Shown: positions 23,879 to 38,533 of the stretch, piece after piece | How the letters are laid out: every line of letters starts with the position of its first letter | Position numbering within the stretch: position 1 is the first letter of the stretch | Translations under genes and position numbers: made by a program | The notes under the pieces: model-generated | The model's input: the letters and a program-made list of their open reading frames with translations, nothing else | Database searches by the model: none | Told to the model about the DNA's origin: nothing | From: a virus | DNA: 38,851 nucleotides | Strand: one strand, 5' to 3' | IMG/VR virus record: IMGVR_UViG_3300032073_003400 | Coordinates: 1 to 38,851 of that record

Positions 23879-25345
23879 ATGTCTGACGAAATCTATATAA
23901 ATCACGGGTCTGCTTTTCAACAACCGTACCAAGGTCAAATAATAAGGAATGCACAGGAACCAAATATAAGAAATATAAATGGTTCGTATCCTGCTAACGC
24001 ACAAGCTCCTTTTACATATCAGAATAGAACTCCTTTCACATATAGAAATCCTGTAAGCGCACAGGAACCAAATATAAGAAACAAACAGAGTCCTTTCACA
24101 TATGCAAGACAAGGACAAAGTCCTTTCACATATCAACATCCTTTTACATATGCAAGACAGGGTCAAACACCTTTTATATATCAACAACAAAGTCCGTTTA
24201 CATATAGAAATCCTGTAAGTGCTCAACAACCTAATATAAGGAGTAAACAAAGTCCTTTTACATATGCAAGACAAGGACAAAGTCCATTCACATATAGTTA
24301 TGGATCACCGTATGGTGTAAATGCACAGCAACCATATCCTTATATTTCACAACAACCTGGCCAGGCTCAAACACAGGCAATTGTTCAAAATCCTGTTTCG
24401 GGTAGGGTTCCAACACCTACTCCTTCGCAAGCTCAAGCACAGAATCCTGTAATAATTCAGATTCCGTTTTATTCACCTGATGGTGGGCCAGTGGCATATA
24501 GACAACCGACTCCATATATTACTACTGGACAATCACAACAACCGTTGATTACTCAGGCAATCGTTGCTTCTACTACTAGACAACCGAGTACAACACAAAC
24601 TAGAACTCCGTTGACTTATCAAATACAAGACCCTTATGTTGGTGGGCCGTATGCATATAGACAACCTTCAACACAAACTATTCAGTCTGTTATAAATCAA
24701 CTTTCAAATGTTGGTAATGTGAGAGGGCCACAACCTTATATCTCTCAAAATTCTGTAAACACAACAGGTAGAAGTCCATTTATTGCACCAGCACAAGAAC
24801 CTAACATTAGGAATAAACAACAACCATATCCTTACATTGCAAATGCAAGACAACCTATAATCTATAGTTATAGATCACCATCTTTTTATCAGAATCCAGT
24901 GTCAGCACAGGAAAACAATGCAAAGAACGCTCAACAACCGTATCCTTACATTGCAAATGCAAGACAACCAAGTAATGCACAACAACCGTATCCGTATATT
25001 GCACAGTCAAGGCAACCATTAACATACGATCATAGGTCACCGTTTACATATAGAAATCCAGTAAACGGACAACAACCATATATTGCAAATGCAAGGCAAC
25101 CTAGTACATATCAGAATCCTTACATATACAACTATAACTATAGATCACCATTTACATATCAACAACCATATTCGTTGACTAGACCTATAGATGCAGTTGC
25201 AAAGGTAAAAGGTGTGTTTGTGAATGACAACGGAACATTGAGAAAAGCTCAAGAGGTATATGTAAATGCACCTCAAGGGCCACAACCAACTAATGTTGAA
25301 AAAATTCATCAATCAGTGCCTAATGCACAGTTCTTAAAAGGATAA
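23879..25345 (+). CDS. Octapeptide-repeat, Pro/Tyr/Arg/Gln-rich fibre-like protein 1
   Basis: 488 aa of striking low complexity. Much of it is made of degenerate eight-residue units of form x-[QR]-[SQET]-P-[FNSY]-[TI]-[YRA]-x, for example KQSPFTYA, AQEPNIRN, ARQPSTYQ and YRSPFTYR, with NPVSA or NPVNG spacers and YPYIAN variants. The first 20 residues and the last 50 are not repetitive; the end (KVKGVFVNDNGTLRKAQEVY) resembles the N-terminal tip-like segment of the protein at 31184. There is no signal peptide or membrane segment, and few acidic residues. I know no function for this repeat. Position among fibre genes and relationship to the proteins at 31184 and 32116 suggest a virion surface role. 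The ribosome-binding site is poor. Confidence 0.7.
   Translation: MSDEIYINHGSAFQQPYQGQIIRNAQEPNIRNINGSYPANAQAPFTYQNRTPFTYRNPVSAQEPNIRNKQSPFTYARQGQSPFTYQHPFTYARQGQTPFIYQQQSPFTYRNPVSAQQPNIRSKQSPFTYARQGQSPFTYSYGSPYGVNAQQPYPYISQQPGQAQTQAIVQNPVSGRVPTPTPSQAQAQNPVIIQIPFYSPDGGPVAYRQPTPYITTGQSQQPLITQAIVASTTRQPSTTQTRTPLTYQIQDPYVGGPYAYRQPSTQTIQSVINQLSNVGNVRGPQPYISQNSVNTTGRSPFIAPAQEPNIRNKQQPYPYIANARQPIIYSYRSPSFYQNPVSAQENNAKNAQQPYPYIANARQPSNAQQPYPYIAQSRQPLTYDHRSPFTYRNPVNGQQPYIANARQPSTYQNPYIYNYNYRSPFTYQQPYSLTRPIDAVAKVKGVFVNDNGTLRKAQEVYVNAPQGPQPTNVEKIHQSVPNAQFLKG
23985..25190 (+). repeat. Degenerate octapeptide-encoding repeats, array 1
   Basis: Coding repeats with a 24-base underlying period and irregular spacers. 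Near-identical DNA blocks recur, for example the PFTYARQGQSPFTY-coding stretch near 24097-24132 and again near 24256-24292. The repeats are diverged at most places, so they are old with some recent copying. Confidence 0.7.
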
Positions 25346-26067: not shown

Positions 26068-27504
26068 ATGTCAACAGTAATTCAGATTAAGCGAAGTACA
26101 GGTGTCTCCGCTCCAACTGCGAGTAATCTCTCAGAAGGGGAATTGGCATATGTACAGGACAGGTCTAATTCGGGTGCTGGTGCAAAACTATTCATTGAGT
26201 CAGTAGATTCAGATAACTCTACTCCATTGATTCATGCAATCGGTGGTAAGTATTATACTGATATACTTGCTGGTTCTACGGCAACCCCTGCCGACTTTAA
26301 AGTTGGTAATGGTTCGTCTACAGGTGGTACTTTAAAACTGATGGAAGATACCGATAACGGTTCTCACTCCATTGGATTGAAAGCACCTGATAGTGTTGGT
26401 AGTAATGTGGTATTCACATTGCCCGGCACAGATGGTTCTGCAAACCAAGTTATCCAAACAGACGGTTCAGGAAACCTATCCTTCGCATCAACTACATCAA
26501 CCTTAGCAGGCGCAACAGATACAGATATATCAAGTGCATCCACAGGACAAATACTTGTTCATGATGGTTCAGATTCATTCGATAACAAATCGATATCAGG
26601 AGACGCCACTCTTGCAGCTTCAGGTGCATTAACAATTGCAAATGATGCTGTAGATGCAGATAAATTGGCTGCAAGTGCAGTCGTAATCGGTTCATTGTCA
26701 GCAGGAATGTTGGTAATCGAATCCGAAGGTATTGGATCAAACGATAACGATACAACTATTGCAACTTCGGCTGCAATTAAAGATTATGTCGATACACAAA
26801 TCACTGCTCAAGACCTTGATTTCCAAGGTGACACAGGTGGTGCATTGTCAATCGATCTAGATAGTGAAACTCTTTCAATCGTTGGTACAACTAACGAGAT
26901 CGAAACAGCAGGTTCAGGAAACCAAATTCAAATAGGTCTTCCTGATAATGTTACAATCGCAGGAAACTTGACAGTTAGTGGTACAACTACAACTGTTAAC
27001 TCAACTACAGTGTCTATTGCTGACCCAGTTTTTGAAATTGGTGACGACAGTTCAGACGACAACCTAGACCGTGGTATTAAATTCAAATACAATAGTTCAG
27101 GTGCAAAAGTTGGTTTCTTTGGTTTCGATGATTCAACAGGAAAGTTTGTAGCACTAGGAGCTGCAACAGACAGTTCTTCAACATTCTCAGGTACAGCACT
27201 TGATGCAGTATTTGGTGGTGTAGAAGCAACAGGTCTTGCACTTTCAGGATCAATCACAAGCATAGACGGGTCTGCTCCAACAGCAGGTCAAATCCTAATC
27301 GGTCACGGTTCAAACGGTGACTTTGCAAAAGGAACTCTAACTGCTGGTGAAGGTATCGATGTGACTAACGCAGATGGAAGTATCACAATAGCTGGTGAAG
27401 ATGCAACTACCTCGAATAAAGGTATTGCAAGTTTTGCTTCTGCAAACTTCACTGTATCCAGTGGTGCCGTTACAATCACAGGTATAGATGGTGGAACATT
27501 TTAA
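26068..27504 (+). CDS. Tail fibre protein with MTD-like N-terminus, ending IDGGTF
   Basis: 478 aa. The N-terminus ([20 protein letters not shown] then GELAYVQD, residues 4-31) is the intimin/MTD-type N-terminal motif shared by many phage receptor-binding proteins. The body is Ser/Thr/Gly/Asp-rich and beta-structured, with [20 protein letters not shown], then [20 protein letters not shown] (about 118-138), [17 protein letters not shown], an [20 protein letters not shown] segment near 288 and [20 protein letters not shown] near 308, a fibre motif also in the 678-aa protein. The C-terminus is [10 protein letters not shown] perfect AGGAGGA lies seven bases before the ATG, predicting strong translation. 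Confidence 0.8.
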
Positions 27505-27530
27505 TTAATCATCTATAGGAGGAGATACCG

Positions 27531-28355
27531 ATGGCAACAGAGATTAAATTTAAAAGGAGTTCGACACAGAACGATCTTCCCGTAGTCAGTGATCTTGCCC
27601 TAGGTGAGATTGCAATTAATACCTATCATGGTCGTGTATACACGGAGAAAAATGATGGGTCGGCTGCAATTGTGGAAGTCGGATCAGTCCCAGCTTCTCT
27701 AACAATCAATGATGCAATCACATTTCCAACAAGTGATGGTTCAAATGGACAAGCCTTAACTACAGATGGTTCGGGGACTTTATCGTTCTCAACCGTTGGT
27801 GGTACAGGTTTATCAGTTTTCACATATACAATTACAGGTAATACAACTGCTATTACAGGTAATGATGATAACTCAAATTCTCTATCCTACACAGCAGGTA
27901 AAGAACAAGTTTATCTAAATGGTGTGAAACTAATTGATGGTGGTACAGATTATACGACCACTAATTCCACAACTATCACTCTCGCTGCAAATGCGATAAG
28001 TGGTGATGTCGTTCAGGTTCTTGCATATACAAGTGCAGACTTGGTACAAGGATACTATACGGCTTCAACATTTTCTGCAACAACGGCTGACCAAGTGTTA
28101 TCTGCAAATGGCATTGCAAATAAAGCAATCAAATATGTCATTTGTGCAACTCACGCTTCTGCTGGAACACACGCTGCAGAGGTTTTATTAATCAACAATG
28201 GTTCTAACTCATACTTCGTCCAGTACGGTGATGTGTTTAGTGCCAGTTCGTTATTCTCGTTGAATTCCGATATTAACTCAGGTAATATGAGACTTCTCGT
28301 AACACCAACTAATACGAATACAACGATTGATACATTCCAAATAAGACATTCATAG
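27531..28355 (+). CDS. Tail fibre protein with MTD-like N-terminus and receptor-tip-like C-terminus
   Basis: 274 aa. Residues 3-45 (TEIKFKRSSTQNDLPVVSDL then ALGEIAINTYHGRVYTEKND) are the MTD-type N-terminus. FPTSDGSNGQALTTDGSGTL follows near residue 64. Residues about 95-170 are the EQVYLNGVKLIDGGTDYTT ... SGDVVQVLAY module also found in gp7 and at 22594. The C-terminal 85 residues (KAIKYVICATHASAGTHAAE, VLLINNGSNSYFVQYGDV, NSGNMRLLVTPTNTNTTI) are homologous to the next protein, and are likely the exposed tip. AGGAGGA lies seven bases before the ATG. Confidence 0.8.
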   Translation: MATEIKFKRSSTQNDLPVVSDLALGEIAINTYHGRVYTEKNDGSAAIVEVGSVPASLTINDAITFPTSDGSNGQALTTDGSGTLSFSTVGGTGLSVFTYTITGNTTAITGNDDNSNSLSYTAGKEQVYLNGVKLIDGGTDYTTTNSTTITLAANAISGDVVQVLAYTSADLVQGYYTASTFSATTADQVLSANGIANKAIKYVICATHASAGTHAAEVLLINNGSNSYFVQYGDVFSASSLFSLNSDINSGNMRLLVTPTNTNTTIDTFQIRHS

Positions 28356-28366
28356 GAGGATGAGAA

Positions 28367-28777
28367 ATGGCTATAAGTAAATCATTTAAACTTGCAGAAC
28401 TTATCCGACATATCGAATATGATTCGACTGACGATGTAATTAAAACGAGTAAACCAACTCAGGATAAAAACAAAAAGAGAGGATCGGAAACAAAGACCTC
28501 TACCGATGTGTTTAATCTTGATACATTTGCTCATGCAGACTTTAGAGCTGCAAGATACATTGTTGCAATGTCTAAGGGAACAGATTTCCATTCAACGGAA
28601 ATTATGTTGATTCACGATGGAACTACGGTTTCCATTACTCAATATGGTGTTTTGCAAGATACAACACTTGCCACATTTGATGCAGACATCAGTGGTGCAA
28701 ATGTTAGACTTAGATGCACACCAGCTTCGGCAACTTCGACCACAATCAAGTTTGACCGAACATTGGTTGATGCATAA
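28367..28777 (+). CDS. Stand-alone tip-domain protein paralogous to the preceding fibre C-terminus
   Basis: 136 aa. The first 50 residues are basic and polar (MAISKSFKLAELIRHIEYDS, KPTQDKNKKRGSETKTS). The rest (AARYIVAMSKGTDFHSTEIM, LIHDGTTVSITQYGVLQDTT, ISGANVRLRCTPASATSTTI) aligns along its whole length with the last 85 residues of the fibre at 27531: same aromatic-rich strands, same glycine turn before the Q-Y-G motif, same R-L-x-T-P near the end. It starts 12 bases after that gene with AGGAGGA six bases before the ATG, and a strong terminator follows. It may be a fibre tip subunit or an alternative receptor-binding domain. Confidence 0.75.
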   Translation: MAISKSFKLAELIRHIEYDSTDDVIKTSKPTQDKNKKRGSETKTSTDVFNLDTFAHADFRAARYIVAMSKGTDFHSTEIMLIHDGTTVSITQYGVLQDTTLATFDADISGANVRLRCTPASATSTTIKFDRTLVDA

Positions 28778-28796
28778 GAGGAACTAAACTCGAATT

Positions 28797-28826
28797 AAAG
28801 GGGGTGTATGCCCCCTTTTCTTTTTC
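28797..28826 (+). terminator. Rho-independent terminator
   Basis: An 8-bp stem (AAAGGGGG / CCCCCTTT) with loop TGTATG at 28805-28810, followed by TTTTCTTTTTC-type T-rich tract. It is the clearest terminator in the window and closes the transcript that covers the MTD-like fibres. A late promoter follows within 20 bases, so this is a transcription unit boundary. Confidence 0.9.
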
Positions 28827-28844
28827 TAATGCACACTCAAGTCT

Positions 28845-28852
28845 TATAAATA
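28845..28852 (+). promoter_or_regulatory. Late promoter TATAAATA after the terminator
   Basis: A perfect late octamer 43 bases before the ATG at 28896, with ACGGAGA as ribosome-binding site in between. It restarts transcription for the second half of the fibre region. Confidence 0.8.
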
Positions 28853-28895
28853 ATCCTATACATTCTTAAACTTTTATTTTAGGACACGGAGAAAC

Positions 28896-29129
28896 ATGGC
28901 AGATACAAAGAATTTTAGAGTAGAGCATGGAATAAACATTGGAACTACCGAAGTCGTGAATTCAAGTGGGAAGGTACAAGCCTCAGCAGTATCTACATTA
29001 GACTCAGATGACATAACGGAAGGTTCGTCTAATACCTACTTCTCGACAACAAGGGTGAACAACCATCTAGCAGATGCTTCCTCGGCAAAAACTATTAATA
29101 ATGCCACAATTGACGGAGGAACCTTTTAA
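28896..29129 (+). CDS. Short fibre stub, anchor plus linker, ending IDGGTF
   Basis: 77 aa. The N-terminus (TKNFRVEHGINIGTTEVVNS) is paralogous to that of the next gene (AQNFKIKNGLTVGTTEVIDS). It then has SDDITEGSSNTYFSTTRVNN, the linker that precedes adhesive modules in other fibres here, and stops after ATIDGGTF. It looks like a fibre with the shaft and tip removed, yet it keeps a good start and an intact stop that overlaps the next ATG (TAATG). The GGAGGA that codes for part of the GGTF end also serves as ribosome-binding site for the next gene. Confidence 0.75.
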   Translation: MADTKNFRVEHGINIGTTEVVNSSGKVQASAVSTLDSDDITEGSSNTYFSTTRVNNHLADASSAKTINNATIDGGTF

Positions 29130-31165
29130 TGGCAGCCCAAAACTTTAAAATCAAAAACGGATTGACGGTAGGAACAACCGAAGTTATTGATAGTTCAGGA
29201 GACTTAACAAATGCAGCTTTTGGAACTGCAGCTCTTGAGGCAATCGATGACCAAGTAAATTCACTCTTAACAGCAGGGACAGGAGTATCATTATCATATG
29301 ATGACTCTGCTGGAACACTTACGATCAACGGACAACAGGGTGATATCACAGGAGTCACCGCTGGTACAAACTTAAGTGGAGGAGGTACTTCGGGTACAGT
29401 CACACTTAATGTAGAACAAAAATTAAACAACACAACTGCACCATACTATCACAATGTAGTAGTGACAGTTAGTGGTGGTAAATTCTTATTTGACGGACAG
29501 ACTTCATCTCAAGAATTAAGACTTATACCTTCTGTAGTATACAGATTCGATCAATCAGACAGTTCAAACTCAAACCATCCATTAAGATTTTCTGAGTCAT
29601 CAGACGGTTCAGAAATGTCAGATGGTTACACAATTTATAACAAAGTAGGTACACCAGGCTCAAGTGGTTCATATACAGAAGTTGCATTTGACCAAGAAGC
29701 ACCTCAAGTTATGTACTTCTACTGTTCAAATCACAGTGGAATGGGTAACTCAGTTGCACTTGGAAGTGGAGACATAGCAGGAGTTACTGCTGGAGACGGT
29801 CTCTCAGGTGGTGGTGCATCAGGAACAGTAACACTATCATTAAACAGTTCAGTAGCAGGAGATGGTCTTGCACATTCAAGTGGTGTATTATCTCTCGACT
29901 TAAACGAATTAACTGCAGCCACAGTTGATGTATCTGCAGACAGTGTTCCAATTATTGACGGAACTGCAACTAGAAAAGAAAGTATTGCAGATATAGTAAC
30001 TGCAGTTGCTGGAGATGGTTTATCTGCATCGGGTGGTGTTCTTGCAGTTGGAGTCGATGATAGTTCAATCGAAACAGATTCCGATGCATTAAGAGTTAAA
30101 GCATCAGGTGTTACAAATGCAATGTTGGCTGGATCAATTGCAAATGCAAAACTATCAAACAGTGCAGTAACAGTTACAGCGGGTGACGGTTTATCAGGTG
30201 GTGGTTCAGTATCATTAGGTAGTTCCGTATCTCTTGCAGTTGGTGTAGATGACAGTTCAATAGAAACAAGTTCAGATCAATTACAAGTTAAAGCAGGTGG
30301 TGTCACAAATGCAATGTTGGCTGGATCAATTGCAAATGCAAAATTAATTAACAGTGCAATAACGATCAACTCCAATTCAACTTCACTAGGAAGTTCAGTA
30401 ACTTTAGATACTGGTGATATTGCAGAAAATGGAAACTTATATTTTACAAACGAAAGAGTTGACGATAGAGTTGCAGCTCTCATAGTTGGTGGTTCAAATA
30501 TCACTGCAACCTATGACGATGCAGCGGGAACATTAACACTTGCTGGTTCGGCTGCATACGGTGATTCAGATGCAAGACAAGCGATATCAGTCACAGATAA
30601 TGGTGGAGATGGATCACTTGCATACAATAACTCTACAGGTGTTATTACATATAACGGCCCAAGTGCATCAGAAGTAAGAGCTCATTTAAGTGCTGGAACT
30701 GGTGTAGGTTATTCAGGTGGTGCATTTAGTATCGGTCAGGCAGTTGCAACAAACAGTAATGTTCAATTTGCAGACTTAACACTATCAGGAAACTTAACAG
30801 TTAACGGAACAACAACTACAGTATCATCTACAAACTCTGTAATTGCAGATGCATTGATAGAATTAGGAAACGGAACATCAGGTTCACCTTCTAACGATGC
30901 TGGTTTTGTAATTGAAAGAGGAAGTTCCGACAATGTATTTATTGGTTGGGATGAGAGTGCAGATGCAGTCACATTTGGAACAGGTTCATTCACAGGTGCA
31001 TCAACAGGTAATTTGACAATTACACCAAGTGCAGTAAATACAGGTGCAATTACAATAACAAACGCAACAAATAGTGGTGGTACAGCAAGAAATGTATATC
31101 AATCGACTTCTGCTCCGACAGGATCAGATGGTGCGGTTGGTGACTTATGGATTTTATACTCATAA
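29129..31165 (+). CDS. Long tail fibre with cupredoxin-like domain and 64-residue tandem repeat
   Basis: 678 aa. Residues 3-25 are the anchor shared with the preceding stub. Residues about 95-215 resemble a small cupredoxin: SSNSNHPLRFS with H150 and YFYCSNHSGMGNSV with C199, H202 and M205. Then GDGLSGGGASGTVTLSLNSS-type repeats follow, including two tandem copies with a period of 64 residues (starting at V307 and V371: VGVDDSSIET, then VTNAMLAGSIANAKL). Next come LYFTNERVDDRVAALIVGGS near 435, LTVNGTTTTVSSTNSVIADA near 555, and an ending GSDGAVGDLWILYS that resembles the end of the fibre at 22594. A receptor-binding or side-fibre role is likely; copper binding is inferred from ligands only. 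Confidence 0.8.
   Translation: MAAQNFKIKNGLTVGTTEVIDSSGDLTNAAFGTAALEAIDDQVNSLLTAGTGVSLSYDDSAGTLTINGQQGDITGVTAGTNLSGGGTSGTVTLNVEQKLNNTTAPYYHNVVVTVSGGKFLFDGQTSSQELRLIPSVVYRFDQSDSSNSNHPLRFSESSDGSEMSDGYTIYNKVGTPGSSGSYTEVAFDQEAPQVMYFYCSNHSGMGNSVALGSGDIAGVTAGDGLSGGGASGTVTLSLNSSVAGDGLAHSSGVLSLDLNELTAATVDVSADSVPIIDGTATRKESIADIVTAVAGDGLSASGGVLAVGVDDSSIETDSDALRVKASGVTNAMLAGSIANAKLSNSAVTVTAGDGLSGGGSVSLGSSVSLAVGVDDSSIETSSDQLQVKAGGVTNAMLAGSIANAKLINSAITINSNSTSLGSSVTLDTGDIAENGNLYFTNERVDDRVAALIVGGSNITATYDDAAGTLTLAGSAAYGDSDARQAISVTDNGGDGSLAYNNSTGVITYNGPSASEVRAHLSAGTGVGYSGGAFSIGQAVATNSNVQFADLTLSGNLTVNGTTTTVSSTNSVIADALIELGNGTSGSPSNDAGFVIERGSSDNVFIGWDESADAVTFGTGSFTGASTGNLTITPSAVNTGAITITNATNSGGTARNVYQSTSAPTGSDGAVGDLWILYS
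30047..30430 (+). repeat. Tandem repeat of 192 bases in fibre gene
   Basis: Two adjacent copies offset by exactly 192 bases (64 codons). A 39-base block starting at 30113 is repeated identically at 30305, so the duplication is recent or maintained by recombination. Confidence 0.8.
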
Positions 31166-31183: not shown

Positions 31184-32113
31184 ATGGCGTCAGGTTCACA
31201 GAAGGTTAAAACTCCTACTGGGTGGAATGCAACCCAAGGTGCTTGGGTTAAAACAGCCTCATCCACATGGAAGGCAGTTGACCAAATTTACATAAAGACA
31301 GGCCCTGCAACATGGAATAATGCTTCAGGTCAAGAGGCAACGCAAATTCCATATCCTTATATTGCAAATGCTCAGAACCCTGTAATTAGACAAACGATTG
31401 TATCGTATCCTTACATTGCAAATGCACAGGAACCTAACATAAGGAATAGACAAAATCCTTACCCATACATTGCAAATGGTCAGGAACCAAATATTAGAGA
31501 TGCAAGGCAACCTGCTACCTATCAACATAGGTCACCTTTTACATACGATCATAGAAGTCCACTAACTTATAGTTTCAGGTCTCCATCTACTTATCAGAAT
31601 CCAGTGTCAGCACAGGAACCAAACATAAGAGATGCAAGACAGCCTGGAACTTATCAGTTTAGATCACCTTTTACATACGATCATAGAAGTCCATCAACTT
31701 ATAACTATAGGTCACCTTTTACATATAGAAATCCAGTATCAGCACAGGAACCTAATATCAGGTCTGCTCAAGAACCAAATATCAGGTCTGCTCAACAACC
31801 AAACATTAGGGATATAAGACAACCTGTAATATATAACTATAGATCACCATTTACATATAGAAACCCTGTAAATGGTAGACAACCGAATATAAGAAGTTTC
31901 CAGTCACCGTTTACATATCCTGCTAACGCAAGACAACCAGCAACCTATCAGGCACCTGCGAGACAACCATTTATTGCACAGGGAAGAAACCCGTTCACAT
32001 ATCAGGCACCTGCTAGACAACCTAATAATGCAAGTTATCAGTCACCTTTCCAATATCAGGCAAGGTTACCGATTCAGTTGCCATCAGGCGGAGGTAATCC
32101 ACAGATTAAATAA
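31184..32113 (+). CDS. Octapeptide-repeat fibre-like protein 2 with WVK-type N-terminus
   Basis: 309 aa. Residues 1-48 (SQKVKTPTGWNATQGAWVKT, ASSTWKAVDQIYIKTGPATW) form a tryptophan-rich repeat typical of fibre segments. From about residue 52 to the end it is built of the same eight-residue units as the protein at 23879: NAQEPNIRN, ARQPATYQ, HRSPFTYD, YRSPFTYR, with NPVSA/NPVNG spacers. The end is LPSGGGNPQIK. It is rich in P, Y, R, Q and N, with very few acidic residues. A GAGGA lies before the ATG. The next repeat protein starts two bases after its stop, so the pair is one translational unit. Confidence 0.72.
   Translation: MASGSQKVKTPTGWNATQGAWVKTASSTWKAVDQIYIKTGPATWNNASGQEATQIPYPYIANAQNPVIRQTIVSYPYIANAQEPNIRNRQNPYPYIANGQEPNIRDARQPATYQHRSPFTYDHRSPLTYSFRSPSTYQNPVSAQEPNIRDARQPGTYQFRSPFTYDHRSPSTYNYRSPFTYRNPVSAQEPNIRSAQEPNIRSAQQPNIRDIRQPVIYNYRSPFTYRNPVNGRQPNIRSFQSPFTYPANARQPATYQAPARQPFIAQGRNPFTYQAPARQPNNASYQSPFQYQARLPIQLPSGGGNPQIK
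31338..32085 (+). repeat. Degenerate octapeptide-encoding repeats, array 2
   Basis: The HRSPFTYDHRSP-coding block near 31528-31563 has a close copy near 31660-31695. A block reading cagaatccagtgtcagcac near 31595 is also present in the 488-aa gene near 24891. Confidence 0.7.
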
Positions 32114-32115
32114 TT

Positions 32116-32910
32116 ATGGCACAAGCACCTTACATTGGACAAGCAAGACAACCAGTTCCGTTTACATTTCAGAACCCGTTTACATATCCTGCGAACGCGA
32201 GGCAACCGTTTACCTATAACGCACAGAATCCGTTTACTTATCCTGCGAACTATCAGAATCCGTTCACATATCAGACACCAGCTCGACAACCGAACACATA
32301 TAACTATAGGTCGCCGTTCACATACAGGAATCCTGTAAATGGTAGACAACCTACTATTAGAAGTAAACAATCTCCGTTTACTTACCAATATAGATCGCCA
32401 TTTACTTACGATCATAGATCACCTTTTACTTACAACTATAGATCACCGTTTACCTATAGAAGTCCAGTTAATGCACAGGAACCTAATATTAGAAATAATC
32501 AACAACCTACGATTAAGAATGCTCAACAGCCTACGATTAAGAACAATCAAACACCATTCACATATAACTATAGATCACCATTCACCTATAGAAATCCAGT
32601 GAATGCACAGGAACCTAATATTAGAAACCAACAAGAACCTAACATCAGGTCTGCTCAAGAACCTAATATTAGAAATAATCAGACTCCGTTTACCTACGAT
32701 CATAGATCACCGTTTACATATGCAAGACAAGGACAGACACCTGATACCTATTCATATAGAAGTCCATCAACATATCAGGTGATTGCAAATACGCAGAACC
32801 CATACAACCATAGAAGTCCTTCTACATATGCAAGACAGGGAAGAACTCCTGAACCTAGATGGGATGGTGCAGTTCAACAACAGTGGCCTGGGACTCCGAT
32901 TACCTCATAA
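32116..32910 (+). CDS. Octapeptide-repeat fibre-like protein 3
   Basis: 264 aa, almost entirely repeats. It shows the octapeptide register most clearly: AQEPNIRN, NQQPTIKN, AQQPTIKN, NQTPFTYN, YRSPFTYR in sequence, with proline always at position 4, I/T at 6 and R/K/Y at 7. It begins MAQAPYIGQARQPVPFTFQN and ends with a non-repetitive, tryptophan-containing tail (PEPRWDGAVQQQWPGTPITS). The length in amino acids, strong Y/R/P bias and lack of membrane segments suggest an extended fibre-like polymer. It directly precedes the glycosyltransferase fusion and oxygenase genes. Function unknown. Confidence 0.7.
   Translation: MAQAPYIGQARQPVPFTFQNPFTYPANARQPFTYNAQNPFTYPANYQNPFTYQTPARQPNTYNYRSPFTYRNPVNGRQPTIRSKQSPFTYQYRSPFTYDHRSPFTYNYRSPFTYRSPVNAQEPNIRNNQQPTIKNAQQPTIKNNQTPFTYNYRSPFTYRNPVNAQEPNIRNQQEPNIRSAQEPNIRNNQTPFTYDHRSPFTYARQGQTPDTYSYRSPSTYQVIANTQNPYNHRSPSTYARQGRTPEPRWDGAVQQQWPGTPITS
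32128..32850 (+). repeat. Degenerate octapeptide-encoding repeats, array 3
   Basis: About 25 units with a 24-base period broken by NPVN-type and RQGQ-type spacers. The antisense strand is also open over long stretches because of the biased composition; those frames are not taken as genes. Confidence 0.7.
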
Positions 32911-32918
32911 TTTAACCC

Positions 32919-32926
32919 ACTAAATA
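32919..32926 (+). promoter_or_regulatory. Weak late-promoter-like ACTAAATA five bases before a start codon
   Basis: Two mismatches to the late octamer, but the same five-base spacing to ATG as at gp25, 25354 and 37418. No ribosome-binding site is visible before this gene. Confidence 0.25.
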
Positions 32927-32931
32927 CAAGT

Positions 32932-34536
32932 ATGTTAGAGAATATCGACACACTTGAAAAAGCACGCAATCATAACTTTAGAATGACTTTAGAAGAAGCT
33001 TCTAAACATTCTTCTAGACCAGGCTTCAAATTTGGACACAAAGCATACAGTCTTGGAGCTATAGATTTTTTTAGACCCGATACAGAAAAGTCTAAAAACT
33101 TTAGAGAAGTTCTAAATTATATTGTTAGGCAATTACCACCAGTCAGAATAGTTCCTTGGAAGTATATAAAACCAAAGATAGATGCAAAAGAGATACAAAC
33201 TTTTGGTCAATTACATCACAATGCAATACAGTATCAGAGATATTTACATCATGGATGGACTGCATCTTTAAGACCTAATCATCCTTTAGGTGGTGGTGCA
33301 ATGGACTTCATGAACTATGATGATGAATATCAAAAAATATCAACTGTTAGTGACCATCCCGATTGTAATGAGTTAGATAATGAAGAAGAAAATTCTGTAA
33401 ACTCAGTATACTATCACGCTGCCAAAGGTCATTGGTTGGTAAACAATATTCAGAAGGAAGGATTGAGACATCCAATACAAGGTCATACAAACTTAGGTTT
33501 AGGTAGTGGATTCAAGTATAAATTATCTATACATCCAGGCTCTATTAGATGTAAAGTATTTGAGACAATGGATGAACCTGAATTTCAAACCATAGTAACT
33601 GATTATGCAGATTGTTTTCCTGAATGTGAATCATTGAGTGGTGATGAGTTAATAAGTTTTTGGGAAGAACTGAGTATAGGTAGTGAATCAAAACACAATA
33701 CTTTATCTGCAATATGGGTAGACGATGGAAAGTTAGAATTTTCATTATCATCTGTAGCTGGTCTAAATTTTAGAGAAGAAGTTTTTGAATTCAATAAAAA
33801 GGTTACGAAGTTAACTAAGAAAAAACCAGTTAACATTTACTTAGGTTATGATTCAAATCATTCAGACTTATTTGATGTTGCAGAAAAATCTATACATGAT
33901 AGTATTGAGAATATAAAATCAGGTGGAGTTGCAGAAGAATACTTCAATGATTATAAAGTAGAAGTTAAAAAACTTGACATCAATGCAATTTCGGAATATA
34001 CTAGAGAGTATGCAAATCAATCTACTGAGTTTACTTATAGTAGATTCTTAATTCCATATCTAGAAAATTATGAGGGATTTAGCTTCTTCATAGATGATGA
34101 CTACATATGGAAACATAATCCTATGAGTTTATTTTACTTCTTAGACCCTGATAATGCTGTTGCATGTGTTCAGTATGATTTCAAACATCACGATGAAAAC
34201 AAAATGGGCGGTGAGAAAAATGTATCATATCCCATGAAGTTATGGTCTAGTATGATGATATTCAATAATGGTCACGAAGATTGTAGAAAACTTACACCCG
34301 AAGTAGTTAATAATGAGAGTGGAATGTTTTTACATCAATTCAAATGGACAGATCAGATAAGTAAAATTCCTCATGATAAAATTTGTACTGAGGGATACGA
34401 TGATTCTTTCAACGAGACTCATCATGCAATCCATTATACAAGGGGTGGGCCTTGGATAAAAGGTATGGATTCTTCCCACATAAATATGTTGGACTTATAT
34501 GAAAAACATAAAAGAGGATTGCCAAACAGCACCTAA
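32932..34536 (+). CDS. Fusion protein: unknown WLV-GL-HPG-R domain plus glycosyltransferase
   Basis: 534 aa in two parts. Residues about 160-235 carry YHAAKGHWLVNNIQKEGLRH then PIQ, and later HPGSIR at 201-206, a domain shared with the left-edge protein at 1-694. Residues 300 to about 520 are a glycosyltransferase: VNIYLGYDSNH (300-310), STEFTYSRFLIPYL (364-377), the metal-binding FFIDDDY with D388-D390, then KMGGEKNVSYPMKLWSSMMI and FNNGHEDC, FLHQFKW and HAIHYTRGGPW. This is a phage/bacterial GT family with a retained DxD-type site, so it is probably active. Donor and acceptor are unknown. It follows the repeat proteins by 21 bases, making fibre glycosylation or host-glycan modification plausible. 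Confidence 0.75.
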   Translation: MLENIDTLEKARNHNFRMTLEEASKHSSRPGFKFGHKAYSLGAIDFFRPDTEKSKNFREVLNYIVRQLPPVRIVPWKYIKPKIDAKEIQTFGQLHHNAIQYQRYLHHGWTASLRPNHPLGGGAMDFMNYDDEYQKISTVSDHPDCNELDNEEENSVNSVYYHAAKGHWLVNNIQKEGLRHPIQGHTNLGLGSGFKYKLSIHPGSIRCKVFETMDEPEFQTIVTDYADCFPECESLSGDELISFWEELSIGSESKHNTLSAIWVDDGKLEFSLSSVAGLNFREEVFEFNKKVTKLTKKKPVNIYLGYDSNHSDLFDVAEKSIHDSIENIKSGGVAEEYFNDYKVEVKKLDINAISEYTREYANQSTEFTYSRFLIPYLENYEGFSFFIDDDYIWKHNPMSLFYFLDPDNAVACVQYDFKHHDENKMGGEKNVSYPMKLWSSMMIFNNGHEDCRKLTPEVVNNESGMFLHQFKWTDQISKIPHDKICTEGYDDSFNETHHAIHYTRGGPWIKGMDSSHINMLDLYEKHKRGLPNST

Positions 34537-34547
34537 TATGTTATAAT
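34519..34547 (+). promoter_or_regulatory. Candidate sigma-70 promoter (TTGCCA-17-TATAAT)
   Basis: TTGCCA at 34519-34524 and a perfect TATAAT at 34542-34547 with the optimal 17-base spacer, at the end of the glycosyltransferase gene. The predicted start near 34554 is only about three bases before the next ATG, whose GGAG would then be outside the transcript. Confidence 0.5.
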
Positions 34548-34556
34548 GGAGATATT

Positions 34557-35111
34557 ATGAATGGATTAATTTATTGTGAAAACGGAAACCTTTGGGTCAG
34601 AAAACCAAATGGTTTGGAATGGGAACACAAAAATGTAGACAGACCTGAGTTAGGTTTCGAATACGAAGTTCTTATCTATGACGATATAGAATGTAAAGTC
34701 GAAAAATGGAATGACGAAGTAAATTTAGATCAACAAGATAGATTACCTCTATCTGAAACTGAGAAGGATGCAGTTGAAGCTTATATCAGTAATGCAGAAC
34801 CTCCTCATGGTGTTAGTTTAAACCAACAATATGTTGGTCGAATCAATGAAGTAGTTAACAACAATCAACATCAACAAGCTGAGAAGTATGGATTTGATAA
34901 TATGGTTGAAGTTCTACTGGCTGCAAGAGAAGGATCAGCACATCCACATAGATCGAATGCAAGAAGAGCTTTAGAATACTTCGATGCAATAGCAAATGTT
35001 GCAGAAGACTTGTATAAAGAAATTTCAATTACAAGAGAAGATACTCTAAAACCTTTAGAAGATTATTTACTAACACTTCCACCACCTTCATCAGGCCCTG
35101 GCATGGGTTAA
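34557..35111 (+). CDS. Unknown protein, possible tail-fibre chaperone
   Basis: 184 aa. Residues 1-50 look beta-structured and tryptophan-rich (MNGLIYCENGNLWVRKPNGL). A polar linker with ETEKDAVEAYISNAEPP follows. The C-terminal half is helical: YGFDNMVEVLLAAREGSAHP then HRSNARRALEYFDAIANVAE at about residues 119-160, ending in PPPSSGPGMG. The arrangement (small N-terminal beta part, P-x-G linker, helical end with R-x-A-L-x-Y-x-D) resembles fibre assembly chaperones of phage tails. That call is an inference from pattern and neighbourhood. It starts 20 bases after the glycosyltransferase and 2 bases before an oxygenase gene. Confidence 0.6.
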   Translation: MNGLIYCENGNLWVRKPNGLEWEHKNVDRPELGFEYEVLIYDDIECKVEKWNDEVNLDQQDRLPLSETEKDAVEAYISNAEPPHGVSLNQQYVGRINEVVNNNQHQQAEKYGFDNMVEVLLAAREGSAHPHRSNARRALEYFDAIANVAEDLYKEISITREDTLKPLEDYLLTLPPPSSGPGMG

Positions 35112-35113
35112 AA

Positions 35114-35821
35114 ATGGATATCAATGTTATACACATTGATGAGCCTTTCCATATCAAGGAAATGCCTTTAGGTAACAATGTTTATGTTTTAGATGATTAT
35201 CTTGAAGATGCTGTATTCCATGCAGTGAATCGAGACATGACCCATTGTGCTTGGCAAAAAACAAATCAAGTAAATGGTCATCCCGATGATGGAAGAGGTG
35301 GTTTACCTAATCATCAATTATGGGGTTGTAGTTTCTTTCGAGATCATGATATGAAAGATGGTCATTTGAATGGAAGGGATGGTTATCCTAATTATCTAAT
35401 TAGATACCTTGATAGAAAAATAAGAACAGACTTTGGATTTGATTGGGTTAGATTTCAATACGCTGGTGGTAACTCACAAACCCATGGACAACATGGAACT
35501 TGTCATGCAGATTGTGATCCCAATGATGAATGGAATCTTTCCTTTTTGTATTATCCTAACACATTTTGGAATCCAAACTGGGGTGGTAAATTGAGATTTT
35601 ATAGTGAGATAGTTCACGGTGGAATTTTAGATTTTATGAATGAGTATGAAACTGGTACAGTTGATTTTGCACCAAATAGACTATTGATGTTTGATGGAAG
35701 AATACCACATGGTGCAGAAGCACCACATGAATCTGCAAGATACATAGATAGGAAGTCTATTGTAATTAGAGGTGATGAGATAGTTTTAAAAGACGAGAGA
35801 GATAAGTATGCCGACTATTGA
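35114..35821 (+). CDS. 2-oxoglutarate/Fe(II)-dependent oxygenase, prolyl-hydroxylase-like
   Basis: 235 aa. Such enzymes use O2 and 2-oxoglutarate to hydroxylate a substrate in the cytoplasm. The iron site is visible: H131-A-D133 (in GTCHADCD), distal H199 (in FDGRIPHGAE) and R209 ten residues later to bind 2-oxoglutarate. Between them is WNLSFLYYPNTFWNPNWGGK with the usual W-GG strand, then LRFY. This is the P4H-like arrangement. The N-terminal 100 residues (YVLDDYLEDAVFHAV) form the support. The substrate is unknown: proline, other residues or a small molecule. Its end overlaps the next gene by 14 bases, so expression is coupled. Confidence 0.82.
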   Translation: MDINVIHIDEPFHIKEMPLGNNVYVLDDYLEDAVFHAVNRDMTHCAWQKTNQVNGHPDDGRGGLPNHQLWGCSFFRDHDMKDGHLNGRDGYPNYLIRYLDRKIRTDFGFDWVRFQYAGGNSQTHGQHGTCHADCDPNDEWNLSFLYYPNTFWNPNWGGKLRFYSEIVHGGILDFMNEYETGTVDFAPNRLLMFDGRIPHGAEAPHESARYIDRKSIVIRGDEIVLKDERDKYADY

Positions 35822-36725
35822 GTTCAGAACATTTAATAAAGAATCATATGCAAACACTAGACCAGTTGCAGCTAGAGAGATGCAACCTGAATGGTGGAAG
35901 AAACAAAAGGTTCGTATAGATCATAGAGGAAGAATGGCTCAGACTATTCGTTCTTGTCCTTCTATGCAAGATTGGTTGTCTATGGGATACTATATTCTTG
36001 CAACAGAAGATATACATGTAATGAATGGGCCTGATTGGGATTGGCCTGATGATGGAGAAAAATTTTCAACCTCTCCAACTGCAAATCATTATTCACAATC
36101 ACATCCTTCAGCACAACTACAAGATTCTGTAGAATATATGGGTGCCCAAGGCCCAGTAAAGGATGCATTTAAAATAACTTCAAACTGGAACATGATTACA
36201 CCCGAAGGTTATTCAGTTCTCTTTCTTGACCCATTTATGTTTTCTAATAAATACTTTGCATGTTGGCAAGGTGTGATTGACTCTGATCGTTTCAACATCA
36301 ATATGGATAATGCACAAATTATTTTTTATCCAAAAGTTAATCATTCTTTTACAATAGAAGCGGGAACACCGCTTGTACAAATATTCCCTTTCAAGAGGGA
36401 AGAATGGGCGTCTACATATTACTATAATGATGCAGATGCATGGCATGGACAACATGCAATACATCCTGATAGTATGCAAAAATGGCAAAGGGAGTTAAAA
36501 TTGGTGGATGAAGAAAGTGGACTACCGAATGACCAATTAAATATAGGTGGATATAGAAGTGGAAAGATTTGGAAACCTAAATCAAGACTCTATGGTAAAC
36601 CTACAGATGGGGGAGAAATACCACCACCTGAGTGTCCAGCTCATCAAAGCTTCAAAGATAAGCAGCGTGAGTTGACTGATTTGAATTGGGATGGTTCGGA
36701 GTCAGAAAAAATAGATAGAGAATAG
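35808..36725 (+). CDS. Conserved phage-type protein of unknown function (DUF6065-like)
   Basis: 305 aa. Features: REMQPEWWKKQKVRIDH near residue 23, TIRSCPSMQDWLSMGYYILA near 46-65, WDWPDDGEKF near 77, NMITPEGYSVLFLDP near 128-142, and IEAGTPLVQIFPFKREEW near 183-200. The central part looks like a cupin-type beta sandwich. Similar proteins occur beside iron oxygenases in marine phages, which is why I suggest the DUF6065-like label, with modest confidence. I see no complete HxH-type metal site. Genes on both sides are 2OG oxygenases, and it overlaps the first by 14 bases. It may be a partner or a substrate-binding protein for them. Confidence 0.6.
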   Translation: MPTIEFRTFNKESYANTRPVAAREMQPEWWKKQKVRIDHRGRMAQTIRSCPSMQDWLSMGYYILATEDIHVMNGPDWDWPDDGEKFSTSPTANHYSQSHPSAQLQDSVEYMGAQGPVKDAFKITSNWNMITPEGYSVLFLDPFMFSNKYFACWQGVIDSDRFNINMDNAQIIFYPKVNHSFTIEAGTPLVQIFPFKREEWASTYYYNDADAWHGQHAIHPDSMQKWQRELKLVDEESGLPNDQLNIGGYRSGKIWKPKSRLYGKPTDGGEIPPPECPAHQSFKDKQRELTDLNWDGSESEKIDRE

Positions 36726-36728
36726 ATT

Positions 36729-37400
36729 ATGTCAGTTAGATTATTGTTTCCTACTTACTTGTTCGAGTTTAATCTCGTAGAGGAAGGATTGGTAACAGAG
36801 GAATATCTTTTATCATTAAAAAATGATATGGATGCAGTGAGAAAGAAAGACCCAGTAGGTAGACAAGTATCTAACGCATATACAGGTTGGCAATCAAACG
36901 ACGGCTTCGAACATCGACCCGCCTGGGCCAAACTCAACCGTGTAATCAAGGACAAATATAATCTTGATGTTCTCCCTTGGTTGCGTGTAGATACTTCTCA
37001 GGCAAGTGTAAGTTTGGGTAATATGTGGGGTAATATAAATGACAAAGGTGCATGGAATAAACCTCACAGACATAATGGTTGTTGGTTAAGTGGTGCATTT
37101 TATGTACATGCAGACGGTGATGAGGGTAATTTTGTTGCAATAAAAGAGGGTGCAGATGTAGTTAGTGACTTCCCACATAACAACAAACAGAGAGAAACCT
37201 TCGAGGTATCACCAGTCACAGGAACCCTTTTACTCTTCCCTAGCGGTCTTATACACATGGTTGAACCTAATGCAACCAGTAAAGATCGATATAGTGTTGC
37301 ATTTAATACAGTTACACACCGAATGGGTTCTGAAACTGATATACCTATAGATTATCATTGGAATAGATTTGAACTAGATGACCCTAAAGTAAGGGGTTAA
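36729..37400 (+). CDS. 2-oxoglutarate/Fe(II)-dependent oxygenase (TIGR02466-like)
   Basis: 223 aa. It begins LLFPTYLFEFNLVEEG, the usual opening of TIGR02466 oxygenases. KPHRHNGCWLSGAFYVHADG near 112-131 supplies H113 and H115 as the first ligand region, and GTLLLFPSGLIHMVEPNATS near 165-184 the distal H176. R187 (DRYSVAFN) is the expected 2-oxoglutarate-binding arginine. An aspartate ligand of the HxD kind is replaced by HRH, as in this family. The substrate is unknown. It is the last gene of the accessory block, three bases after the previous stop, with a weak ribosome-binding site. Confidence 0.8.
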   Translation: MSVRLLFPTYLFEFNLVEEGLVTEEYLLSLKNDMDAVRKKDPVGRQVSNAYTGWQSNDGFEHRPAWAKLNRVIKDKYNLDVLPWLRVDTSQASVSLGNMWGNINDKGAWNKPHRHNGCWLSGAFYVHADGDEGNFVAIKEGADVVSDFPHNNKQRETFEVSPVTGTLLLFPSGLIHMVEPNATSKDRYSVAFNTVTHRMGSETDIPIDYHWNRFELDDPKVRG

Positions 37401-37417: not shown

Positions 37418-37678
37418 ATGGAAATTACGATATCACCTTACATAATATGGAACCTAGTTATGACTGTAATCATAGTCCCACTTGGGTTTTTGATCCGTAC
37501 AGTCCTATCAGAACAAAAGAGACTAGACATTCTTGTCAATAAAACAAGAGAAGAAATCGCAAGAGATTACGCAACAAGAGAGCAGATCGAGGCCGATTTT
37601 GAGAGAGTTTTATCTTCGATTCAGAAGATAGATGAAAAACTTGACCGTCTTCAGCATAAAACTTTTTTCCAAGAGTAG
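37418..37678 (+). CDS. Small membrane protein with coiled coil
   Basis: 86 aa. Residues 7-27 (PYIIWNLVMTVIIVPLGFLI) form one transmembrane helix. Residues 30-80 (LSEQKRLDILVNKTREEIAR then FERVLSSIQKIDEKLDRLQ) form a charged coiled coil. There is no cleavable signal peptide. It lies just before the neck genes. The architecture would suit a holin-like, spanin-like or membrane-anchored assembly factor, and I cannot choose between them. The start has no Shine-Dalgarno sequence and lies five bases after a late-promoter-like octamer. Confidence 0.7.
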   Translation: MEITISPYIIWNLVMTVIIVPLGFLIRTVLSEQKRLDILVNKTREEIARDYATREQIEADFERVLSSIQKIDEKLDRLQHKTFFQE

Positions 37679-37684
37679 AAAAGG

Positions 37685-37692
37685 TATAAATA
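37685..37692 (+). promoter_or_regulatory. Late promoter TATAAATA before gp13
   Basis: A perfect octamer 25 bases before the gp13 ATG with GAAAGGA as ribosome-binding site. The likely start of transcription, about six bases after the octamer, falls inside the 5' arm of the hairpin at 37692-37716. Confidence 0.8.
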
Positions 37693-37717: not shown

Positions 37718-38533
37718 ATGGCAATACCAAACAGTAAAGCATCATTAAAAGAATATGTTAAAAGAAAACTGGGAGCTCCAGTTTTAGATATCAATGTGGA
37801 CGATGACCAGTTTGATGATAGACTGGATGAGGCATTGCAATACTTCCAAGAGTACCATTATGACGGTTCTATCAGAGTTTATCTCAAGCACCAAATAACA
37901 GACGCAAAGAAAACTACCATGAGATCAGATGAAACATTCACAGAGAATGTAGCTGGAACTCATGCGTATGATAATGAACAAGTAAAACAACAACAAAATT
38001 ATATCGTTTTACCTGAGTTTGTATTAGCCGTAAATAGAATCTTCCCTTTCAATGACAAACATAATTTAAACATGTTTGATCTTAGATATCAATTAAGATT
38101 AAACGATCTATACGATCTTTCAGCTACAAATATTCTGTACTACGAAATGGTACAACAACACATCACAATGATGGATAATATTCTAGTTGGTCAAGTTCCA
38201 GTTAGATACAAACAACACATGAATAGATTGTATCTTGATATGGATATCGAAGCTCTAAGTGGTAACGAATTCATAATCATAGAATGTCATAGAAAAATAG
38301 ACCCAACAGACTTCACAGATATCTACAATGATATGTGGTTGAAAAGATATTCAACTGCATTAGTGAAGTATCAATGGGGGGAGAATCTATCCAAGTTTGA
38401 GGGGGTTGCATTACCTGGCGGGGTGACTTTAAATGCATCAGAAATGAAAGCACAAGCACAAGAGGAGATAACAAAACTAGAAGAGGAGTCTCGATTGAAT
38501 TACGAACTTCCCGTCATGGACTTAATGGGGTAA
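37718..38533 (+). CDS. 13: Neck protein gp13
   Basis: 271 aa, against 309 in T4. The N-terminus (PNSKASLKEYVKRKLGAPVL then DINVDDDQFDDRLDEALQYF and QEYHYDGS) is the clear signature of gp13 in T4-like phages, and RIFPFNDKHNLNMFDLRYQL near 108-127, YEMVQQHITMMDNIL near 145 and FTDIYNDMWLKRYSTALVKY near 202 continue it. In T4, gp13 and gp14 close the filled head and receive the tail. It follows a perfect late promoter, with its ribosome-binding site in a hairpin loop, and precedes gp14 by four bases. Confidence 0.92.
   Translation: MAIPNSKASLKEYVKRKLGAPVLDINVDDDQFDDRLDEALQYFQEYHYDGSIRVYLKHQITDAKKTTMRSDETFTENVAGTHAYDNEQVKQQQNYIVLPEFVLAVNRIFPFNDKHNLNMFDLRYQLRLNDLYDLSATNILYYEMVQQHITMMDNILVGQVPVRYKQHMNRLYLDMDIEALSGNEFIIIECHRKIDPTDFTDIYNDMWLKRYSTALVKYQWGENLSKFEGVALPGGVTLNASEMKAQAQEEITKLEEESRLNYELPVMDLMG

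Follow-up and report, generated by a model that had tools for sequence, protein, structure and literature searches.

A conserved, undescribed module of proline- and tyrosine-rich repeat proteins and associated enzymes in uncultured marine T4-like phages

The window, a 38,851-nucleotide stretch of DNA from an uncultured virus, carries a compact run of genes that ends at the gene for the neck protein gp13 (Table 1). An ORF check found the repeat, glycosyltransferase (GT) and oxygenase genes at the positions given in an earlier note, all on the plus strand, and the gaps are as tiny as described there: 18, 2, 21, 20, 2, –14, 3, 17 and 39 nt from the 29129 gene to gp13. Its gene list was incomplete, since it missed two equally conserved genes at 34557 (184 aa) and 35808 (305 aa). 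The order repeat-repeat-GT-h184-P4H-h305-Oxy5-h86-gp13 is fixed wherever contigs reach, and in clade loci that extend far enough related A-type repeat genes precede the B pair by ~8 kb. This is a real, conserved and undescribed module of repeats and enzymes, with a fixed gene order, strictly co-retained genes, recognizable enzyme folds and intact active sites.

Table 1 Features of the repeat and enzyme locus in the window
Feature	Position	Strand	Remarks
Repeat protein A	23879..25345	+	488 aa, 64 Pro; C-terminal KVKGVFVNDNGTLRK...EKIHQSVP tail
Terminator-like hairpin	28797..28818	+	before transcription unit; consensus match, hairpin number not above chance
T4-type late promoter box	28845..28852	+	TATAAATA, 44 nt before 77-aa gene
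77-aa protein	28896..29129	+	first gene of putative late unit
Tail-fibre / structural protein	29129..31165	+	678 aa, directly upstream of repeat pair; PHROG 697 and 30742
Repeat protein B1	31184..32113	+	309 aa, 40 Pro; conserved N-terminal domain MASGSQKVKTPTGWN...WNNASGQ, then repeats
Repeat protein B2	32116..32910	+	264 aa, 38 Pro; repeats throughout, conserved C-terminal RWDG..QQWP end
GT fusion	32932..34536	+	534 aa; phrog_28018 2.3e-38; DxD and HYTRGGPW stretch conserved
h184	34557..35111	+	184 aa, only with this module; 34 invariant columns in 26 relatives
P4H-like 2OG/Fe(II) oxygenase	35114..35821	+	235 aa; PF13640 at 1e-7
h305	35808..36725	+	305 aa; phrog_7084; distant relatives in haloarchaeal tailed viruses
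Oxy5, PF13759 2OG oxygenase	36729..37400	+	223 aa; PF13759 at 1.2e-19
h86	37418..37678	+	small protein, N-terminal hydrophobic stretch; end of unit
Late promoter box	37685..37692	+	TATAAATA, before gp13; next exact plus-strand box after 28845
gp13 neck protein	37718..38533	+	phrog_211 1.3e-46; downstream boundary

The repeat proteins are Pro/Tyr-rich, as first described, but the repeat is not a strict octapeptide, because the step from one proline to the next is typically 6, 8 or 10 residues. These three spacings account for 63–79% of the intervals, compared to 15% in shuffled sequences (2000 shuffles, largest shuffled value 30–41%), and 92–97% of all spacings are even-numbered. A collagen-like repeat is ruled out by composition, as there is no Gly-X-Y pattern and glycine follows fewer than 3% of the prolines; Pro runs are also absent, so that these prolines lie in no known P4H context, a point against them as substrates of the module. 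Hundreds of marine stretches in IMG/VR encode members of the family, but none turned up in Pfam, PHROGs, 50,697 phage records or 84,980 prokaryote genomes. No relatives of the repeats were found in bacterial genomes, and searches of phage isolates with the repeat termini returned only noise. The repeat proteins are probably virion fibres or bristles.

Late promoter boxes are conserved before gp13 in 22 of 36 loci and before the 77-aa gene in only 7 of 29; no exact box was found before P4H, h305 or Oxy5 in 36 loci. The total number of boxes in the window is not above chance; their positions beside gene starts are suggestive, and we infer late co-expression of the module genes.

The GT fusion consists of an N-terminal part of ~290 aa that belongs to no recognized family and a C-terminal GT-A domain at residues 300–510. 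A resemblance of the N-terminus to ParB/sulfiredoxin was seen by eye, and ParB_N gave no match at E 10 with the window protein or seven relatives. An intact DDD site had been claimed; the DxD motif is indeed present (FIDDDY), with D388 and D390 invariant among 24 relatives, but the middle aspartate is replaced by asparagine in four of them. The AlphaFold model has a GT-A fold (pTM 0.87), and its nearest Foldseek matches, with modest TM-scores, are GlyE, LgtC and UGGT; WbbM and the PBCV-1 capsid GT are also matched. GlyE, UGGT and the PBCV-1 enzyme are protein or virion glycosyltransferases. The Pfam GT8 profile matches 13 of the 24 relatives (best E 2.6e-5) and does not match the window protein itself. 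Nothing similar to the full-length fusion was found in phage isolates.

The oxygenase at 35114 has its iron and 2-oxoglutarate ligands, as stated earlier: H131, D133, H199 and R213 do not vary across 20 diverse relatives. The predicted model also bears out the label P4H-like, being nearest in structure to true prolyl hydroxylases: PHD2 or the Pseudomonas putida P4H occupy Foldseek ranks 1–25 at E ~1e-6, a ranking to be read with the over-representation of PHD2 in the PDB in mind. Other dioxygenases, including small-molecule ones, match from 1e-5, one order weaker. The best solved relative by sequence (E 0.002) is 6T8M, the Skp1 prolyl hydroxylase PhyA of Dictyostelium (PMC7864055).

The second oxygenase, at 36729, scores 71 bits against PF13759, for which the curated cut-off is 27. 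Its residues H113, H115, H176 and R187 are fully conserved among 27 relatives, but the canonical HxD/E carboxylate is missing, with HxH in its place in all 27 as well as in 3bvc from the PDB. Both PDB relatives, 3bvc and 2rg4, are uncharacterized proteins. A search with h184 at E 0.01 gave no match among 50,697 phage records, and profiles of known chaperones and fibre-assembly proteins did not rise above noise. For h305, neither Pfam nor PDB profiles gave a convincing match.

The genes of the module are retained together. Repeats are present at 73 of 73 GT-fusion loci with upstream sequence, all downstream enzymes at 92 of 92 with downstream sequence and, counted in reverse, the GT at 79 of 79 repeat loci; within the clade, every P4H locus on a contig that extends far enough also has repeats. 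Apparent losses of P4H in one group of loci (L086) and of Oxy5 in two loci (L035 and L044) were overlapping genes, with both present. The co-occurrence check suggested earlier thus shows no genomes with repeats that routinely lack the oxygenases and the GT, within one clade. Because all loci belong to a single syntenic clade, this co-occurrence amounts to approximately one evolutionary event. The enzymes evolve rapidly, mostly at 43–65% identity, with invariant catalytic residues.

Since the repeats always adjoin a GT and two oxygenases, the phages of this widespread group may chemically decorate their own fibres. The late fibre operon of this clade would then make both the repeats and the enzymes for its own late structural proteins, with the repeat proteins as the most likely targets. 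The most likely sequence of steps begins with hydroxylation of repeat side chains, foremost proline, by the PHD-type oxygenase 35114; the PF13759 oxygenase 36729 would act on residues of another type, and a sugar would be attached to the repeats by 32932, the GT-A transferase. This reading, late action of the module on the phage's own fibres or repeats, is the most likely one, with a chance that we put at slightly below even. The full hydroxyproline-then-sugar scheme, in which prolyl hydroxylation is followed by O-glycosylation of evenly spaced Pro/Tyr surface fibres, all from the same late operon, is plausible but unlikely in its entirety. The hydroxylation–glycosylation reading put forward earlier is upheld as regards a dedicated, fixed module with a prolyl-hydroxylase-like 35114, but not as regards specificity of the oxygenases for the repeats.

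That specificity is contradicted by sister phages. At the corresponding place upstream of gp13, Mosig and HTVC008M have a set of several 2OG oxygenases but no repeats, and the oxygenases are therefore not repeat-specific. A screen of sister phages by proline spacing alone gave wrong-frame false matches, with at most one hallmark motif per sister locus. Retention of oxygenase clusters between fibres and gp13 in repeat-less sisters is consistent with a different target, namely other virion proteins (for example the fibres at 26068–31165 or the baseplate), in which case the repeats would be neighbours through common ancestry of this part of the genome, the fibre region. In cyanophage Sf-CH1b several P4H-type genes in a row directly follow a tail-collar gene, which points the same way. 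In an exploratory analysis, GT distance still tracks repeat composition after control for the gp13–15 phylogeny and for the adjacent fibre gene (partial r 0.30, permutation p 0.001), but the fibre gene 29129 tracks it as strongly (partial r 0.34), and P4H distance does not track it when the fibre gene is taken into account (partial r 0.07, p 0.17). The repeats, GT fusion, h184 and h305 are, however, jointly absent from the sister-lineage loci, which ties at least the latter three to the repeat clade. We regard modification of other virion proteins as somewhat unlikely.

The GT and oxygenases could instead alter host surface glycans, for receptor masking or seroconversion. The GT model resembles LgtC, WbbM and GlyE, among others, in structure, and in phage S-SCSM2R a related single-domain GT sits among glycan genes, with KdsA, KdsB and several GTs. 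No other sugar genes were found near 32932, however, and the unit, bounded by the neck gene, has the appearance of a late one, so that a role in host glycans is quite improbable.

Nucleotide or DNA modification or repair, either a hypermodification of the 5-hydroxymethylcytosine type or an AlkB-like repair, is very improbable. A repair role has been proposed for the Syn9 oxygenases (reviewed in PMC2984593), and in 4 of 9 long clade contigs a TET/JBP gene adjoins a C5 DNA methyltransferase. That locus, however, lies at another place in the genome, and in five contigs that do carry the repeat module it was not detected; neither a TET/JBP nor a C5 methyltransferase gene was found in the window, and the module oxygenase 35114 is PHD-like in its predicted fold. 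Least probable of all is an effect on host metabolism in which the oxygenases reduce or make use of 2-oxoglutarate and in this way steer the nitrogen response of the host, an idea published for the 2OG oxygenases of cyanophages (PMC3037559; repeated in PMC9602691), since they sit inside a structural unit and psbA was not found in nine long clade contigs, which makes a cyanobacterial NtcA target doubtful.

Marine phage genomes are full of 2OG oxygenases without assigned substrates, for which DNA repair and nitrogen metabolism are the published guesses. If the module modifies the phage's own fibres or repeats, it gives one such oxygenase a candidate class of concrete protein substrates. The repeat family is new to the family libraries used and should be easily visible in virion proteomes. 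Decorated fibres, if real, would have no precedent among the phage systems known to us, and they could influence how marine phages adsorb, mimic receptors or are protected.

The closest phage counterparts are the oxygenase arrays of HTVC008M, Mosig and S-SCSM1, which also contain PF13640 and PF13759 members and in the first two lie at the same place upstream of gp13, but in HTVC008M and Mosig without repeat proteins, GT fusion or h184 at that locus. The functions of such arrays in marine T4-like phages have not been specifically investigated (PMC9602691). GlyE, which acts on a pneumococcal serine-rich repeat protein, and the PBCV-1 capsid GT resemble the phage enzyme as GT-A transferases of a repeat adhesin and a virion protein; the phage module has neither a serine-rich repeat nor a capsid target. 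We know of no oxygenase step in either system. Plant extensins, arabinogalactan proteins and mussel foot protein 1 are extracellular, have Pro/Tyr-rich low-complexity repeats and are hydroxylated and often glycosylated. The phage proteins share the Pro/Tyr-rich, low-complexity character but differ in lacking Pro runs and collagen-type glycine and in their even 6/8/10 spacing. In the Skp1 system of Dictyostelium and Toxoplasma, the cytoplasmic PHD-type oxygenase PhyA is combined with separate cytoplasmic GTs that act on hydroxyproline (PMC7864055). The phage module likewise pairs a PHD-type oxygenase, for which PhyA is the nearest solved sequence, with a separate GT, but this GT is not a recognized Skp1 GT. 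Furthermore, Skp1 is modified on one proline and serves oxygen sensing, whereas the phage has 142 prolines in three repeat proteins.

The window is an unannotated virus record of 38.9 kb and comes from a T4-like marine myovirus, with PHROGs matches to baseplate, fibre, neck and head-closure genes. Its gp13 is nearest to those of Pelagibacter phages Mosig and HTVC008M and Methylophilales phage Melnitz (51-54% identity). Between 29129 and 38533 all genes share a strand, the gaps between them measuring 2-39 nt apart from a single 14-nt overlap, and the repeat, glycosyltransferase (GT) and oxygenase genes are positioned as the earlier note described. The same gene order recurs in loci retrieved with the repeats, a GT alignment and a P4H alignment (best 80 loci per search; more distant family members may be missed). 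After removal of duplicates, repeats are found in 73/73 GT loci with enough upstream sequence, GT in 79/79 repeat loci, and h184, P4H, h305 and Oxy5 all in 92/92 loci with enough downstream sequence. The repeat family thus co-occurs with the oxygenases and GT throughout this clade, which amounts to about one event. The few loci flagged as exceptions (two for h184, three for GT) reflect overlaps in stop-to-stop frames; the gene is present in each. The clade is diverse: identity spans 61-100% for gp13, falls to ~40% for GT and is ~50% for P4H.

Features of the window (all on the + strand) and of related viral loci (L) and long contigs (G)
Feature	Position	Remarks
Repeat A	23879	third repeat gene
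Fibre	29129	678 aa
Repeat B1	31184	
Repeat B2	32116	
GT fusion	32932	
h184	34557-35111	184 aa
P4H-like oxygenase	35114	PF13640
h305	35808-36725	305 aa; phrog_7084
Oxy5	36729	PF13759 oxygenase
86-aa protein	37418	
gp13	37718	
Intein/Hint-tailed B1 proteins	L054:10001-12100, L068:10001-12322, L087:7560-9008	Pfam Intein_splicing 1e-7, Hom_end_hint 3.5e-7
C5 DNA methyltransferase adjoining TET/JBP oxygenase	G010:C1:88293-90364 (in L344)	matching places in G008, G013, G014
Oxygenase run, Synechococcus phage Sf-CH1b	L183:5748-12148	at least six P4H/2OG-oxygenase genes
2OG oxygenase cluster, Mosig	L103:12880-17965	with ferrochelatase-like genes
2OG oxygenase cluster, HTVC008M	L104:15074-23423	with ferrochelatase-like genes

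In 80 sister-lineage loci (gp13 55-93% to Mosig) there are no repeat proteins (at most one chance motif each), and every such locus with over 3 kb of upstream sequence also lacks GT fusion, h184 and h305. These four were therefore gained or lost together, in about one event. The sister loci do contain weak relatives of Oxy5 or P4H, and the presence of oxygenases as a class is independent of the repeats. The strongly conserved h184, whose sole known company is the repeat module, has no match in any library or phage isolate searched; h305 is distantly related to proteins of dozens of haloarchaeal tailed viruses, among them HF1 and HRTV-type viruses.

The window's three repeat proteins contain 142 prolines. 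Of the spacings between successive prolines, 63-79% are 6, 8 or 10 residues, compared to ~15% in shuffled proteins. Even spacings make up 92-97% here and 92% over 225 different repeat proteins, in which QEPNIR, RSPFTY, QQPYPY and QTPFTY are the commonest units; the eight-residue unit reads P-[FNY]-[IT]-[YRA]-[NQ]-[AH]-[RQ]-[SQE]. With even spacing, an extended chain would present all its prolines on one face. B1 proteins have a common N-terminal domain, and relatives of B1 alone are encoded in 243 IMG/VR stretches, with none of the repeat family in Pfam, PHROG, the 50,697 phage-isolate records or the 84,980 prokaryote genomes. Both the family and its fixed module are novel with respect to the libraries used. 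Of 161 repeat proteins counted, 12 end in a glycine run and an intein/Hint-like domain; the latter might serve to cleave the repeat chain or to attach it.

The C-terminal domain of GT is of the GT-A type and matches phrog_28018; Pfam GT8 matches it in 13 of 24 relatives. D388 and D390 do not vary, nor does most of the HYTRGGPW stretch. With its AlphaFold model (pTM 0.87), Foldseek places GlyE, LgtC, WbbM and UGGT on top and also matches the PBCV-1 capsid glycosyltransferase. In P4H, H131, D133, H199 and R213 are kept in 20/20 relatives. PHD2 and Pseudomonas putida prolyl hydroxylase occupy Foldseek ranks 1-25 for its model (pTM 0.82), followed by general dioxygenases with E-values just ten-fold weaker. 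The only solved relative by sequence is 6T8M, the Dictyostelium prolyl hydroxylase DdPhyA (PMC7864055), which works in the Skp1 prolyl-hydroxylation/glycosylation pathway (PMC3515798). Oxy5 fits its Pfam family well, and its first motif is HxH, as in PDB 3bvc; the claim of complete iron ligands in both oxygenases thus holds only in part.

Co-variation with repeat-composition distance was explored across 35 non-redundant loci, controlling for gp13, gp14, gp15 and the adjacent fibre gene, with multiple tests uncorrected. GT distance correlates (partial r 0.30, p 0.001), Oxy5 (0.17, p 0.013) and h305 (0.13, p 0.019) weakly, and P4H (0.07, p 0.17) and h184 (0.03, p 0.30) do not. Physical linkage can explain part of these correlations.

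Exact late-promoter boxes (TATAAATA) precede 28896, where the 77-aa gene starts, and gp13, with none between them on the + strand. The intervening genes would fit one late unit, at a box count in the window not above chance. No exact box precedes P4H, h305 or Oxy5 in 36 loci, and only 7/29 loci have one before the 77-aa gene.

The module's genes, order, co-retention, active sites and folds are observed; its timing, location and substrate we infer. Repeat fibres would be made late in infection and modified in the cytoplasm, either ahead of assembly or while it proceeds: P4H would hydroxylate them, Oxy5 may perform a second oxidation, and GT would transfer sugar, with h184 and h305 as putative helpers. 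The arrangement described earlier is confirmed and widened, and its interpretation, that the phage hydroxylates and glycosylates its own proline-repeat fibres, is supported in part. The proposed hydroxyproline-glycan chemistry is reasonable as a hypothesis, with a low probability; searches of open-licence literature found no paper on phage fibre hydroxylation.

DNA modification was checked as an alternative. Away from the module, TET/JBP and C5 methyltransferase genes occur together in 4/9 long relatives, probably as a DNA hypermodification locus; the pair was not found in the other five, all of which still have the module. In L344, a P-loop kinase-like ORF lies two genes beyond the pair. A psbA gene was not found in any of nine long relatives, so a heterotrophic host appears more likely than a cyanobacterium.

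The Sf-CH1b oxygenase genes directly follow a tail-collar gene, so the placing of oxygenase runs after fibre genes is a more general trait among such phages. The Mosig and HTVC008M clusters lie between fibres and terminase; the Mosig region also holds heme oxygenase and bilin reductase, and that of HTVC008M a tryptophan halogenase. Both phages carry oxygenases in the slot corresponding to that of the module, without repeats.
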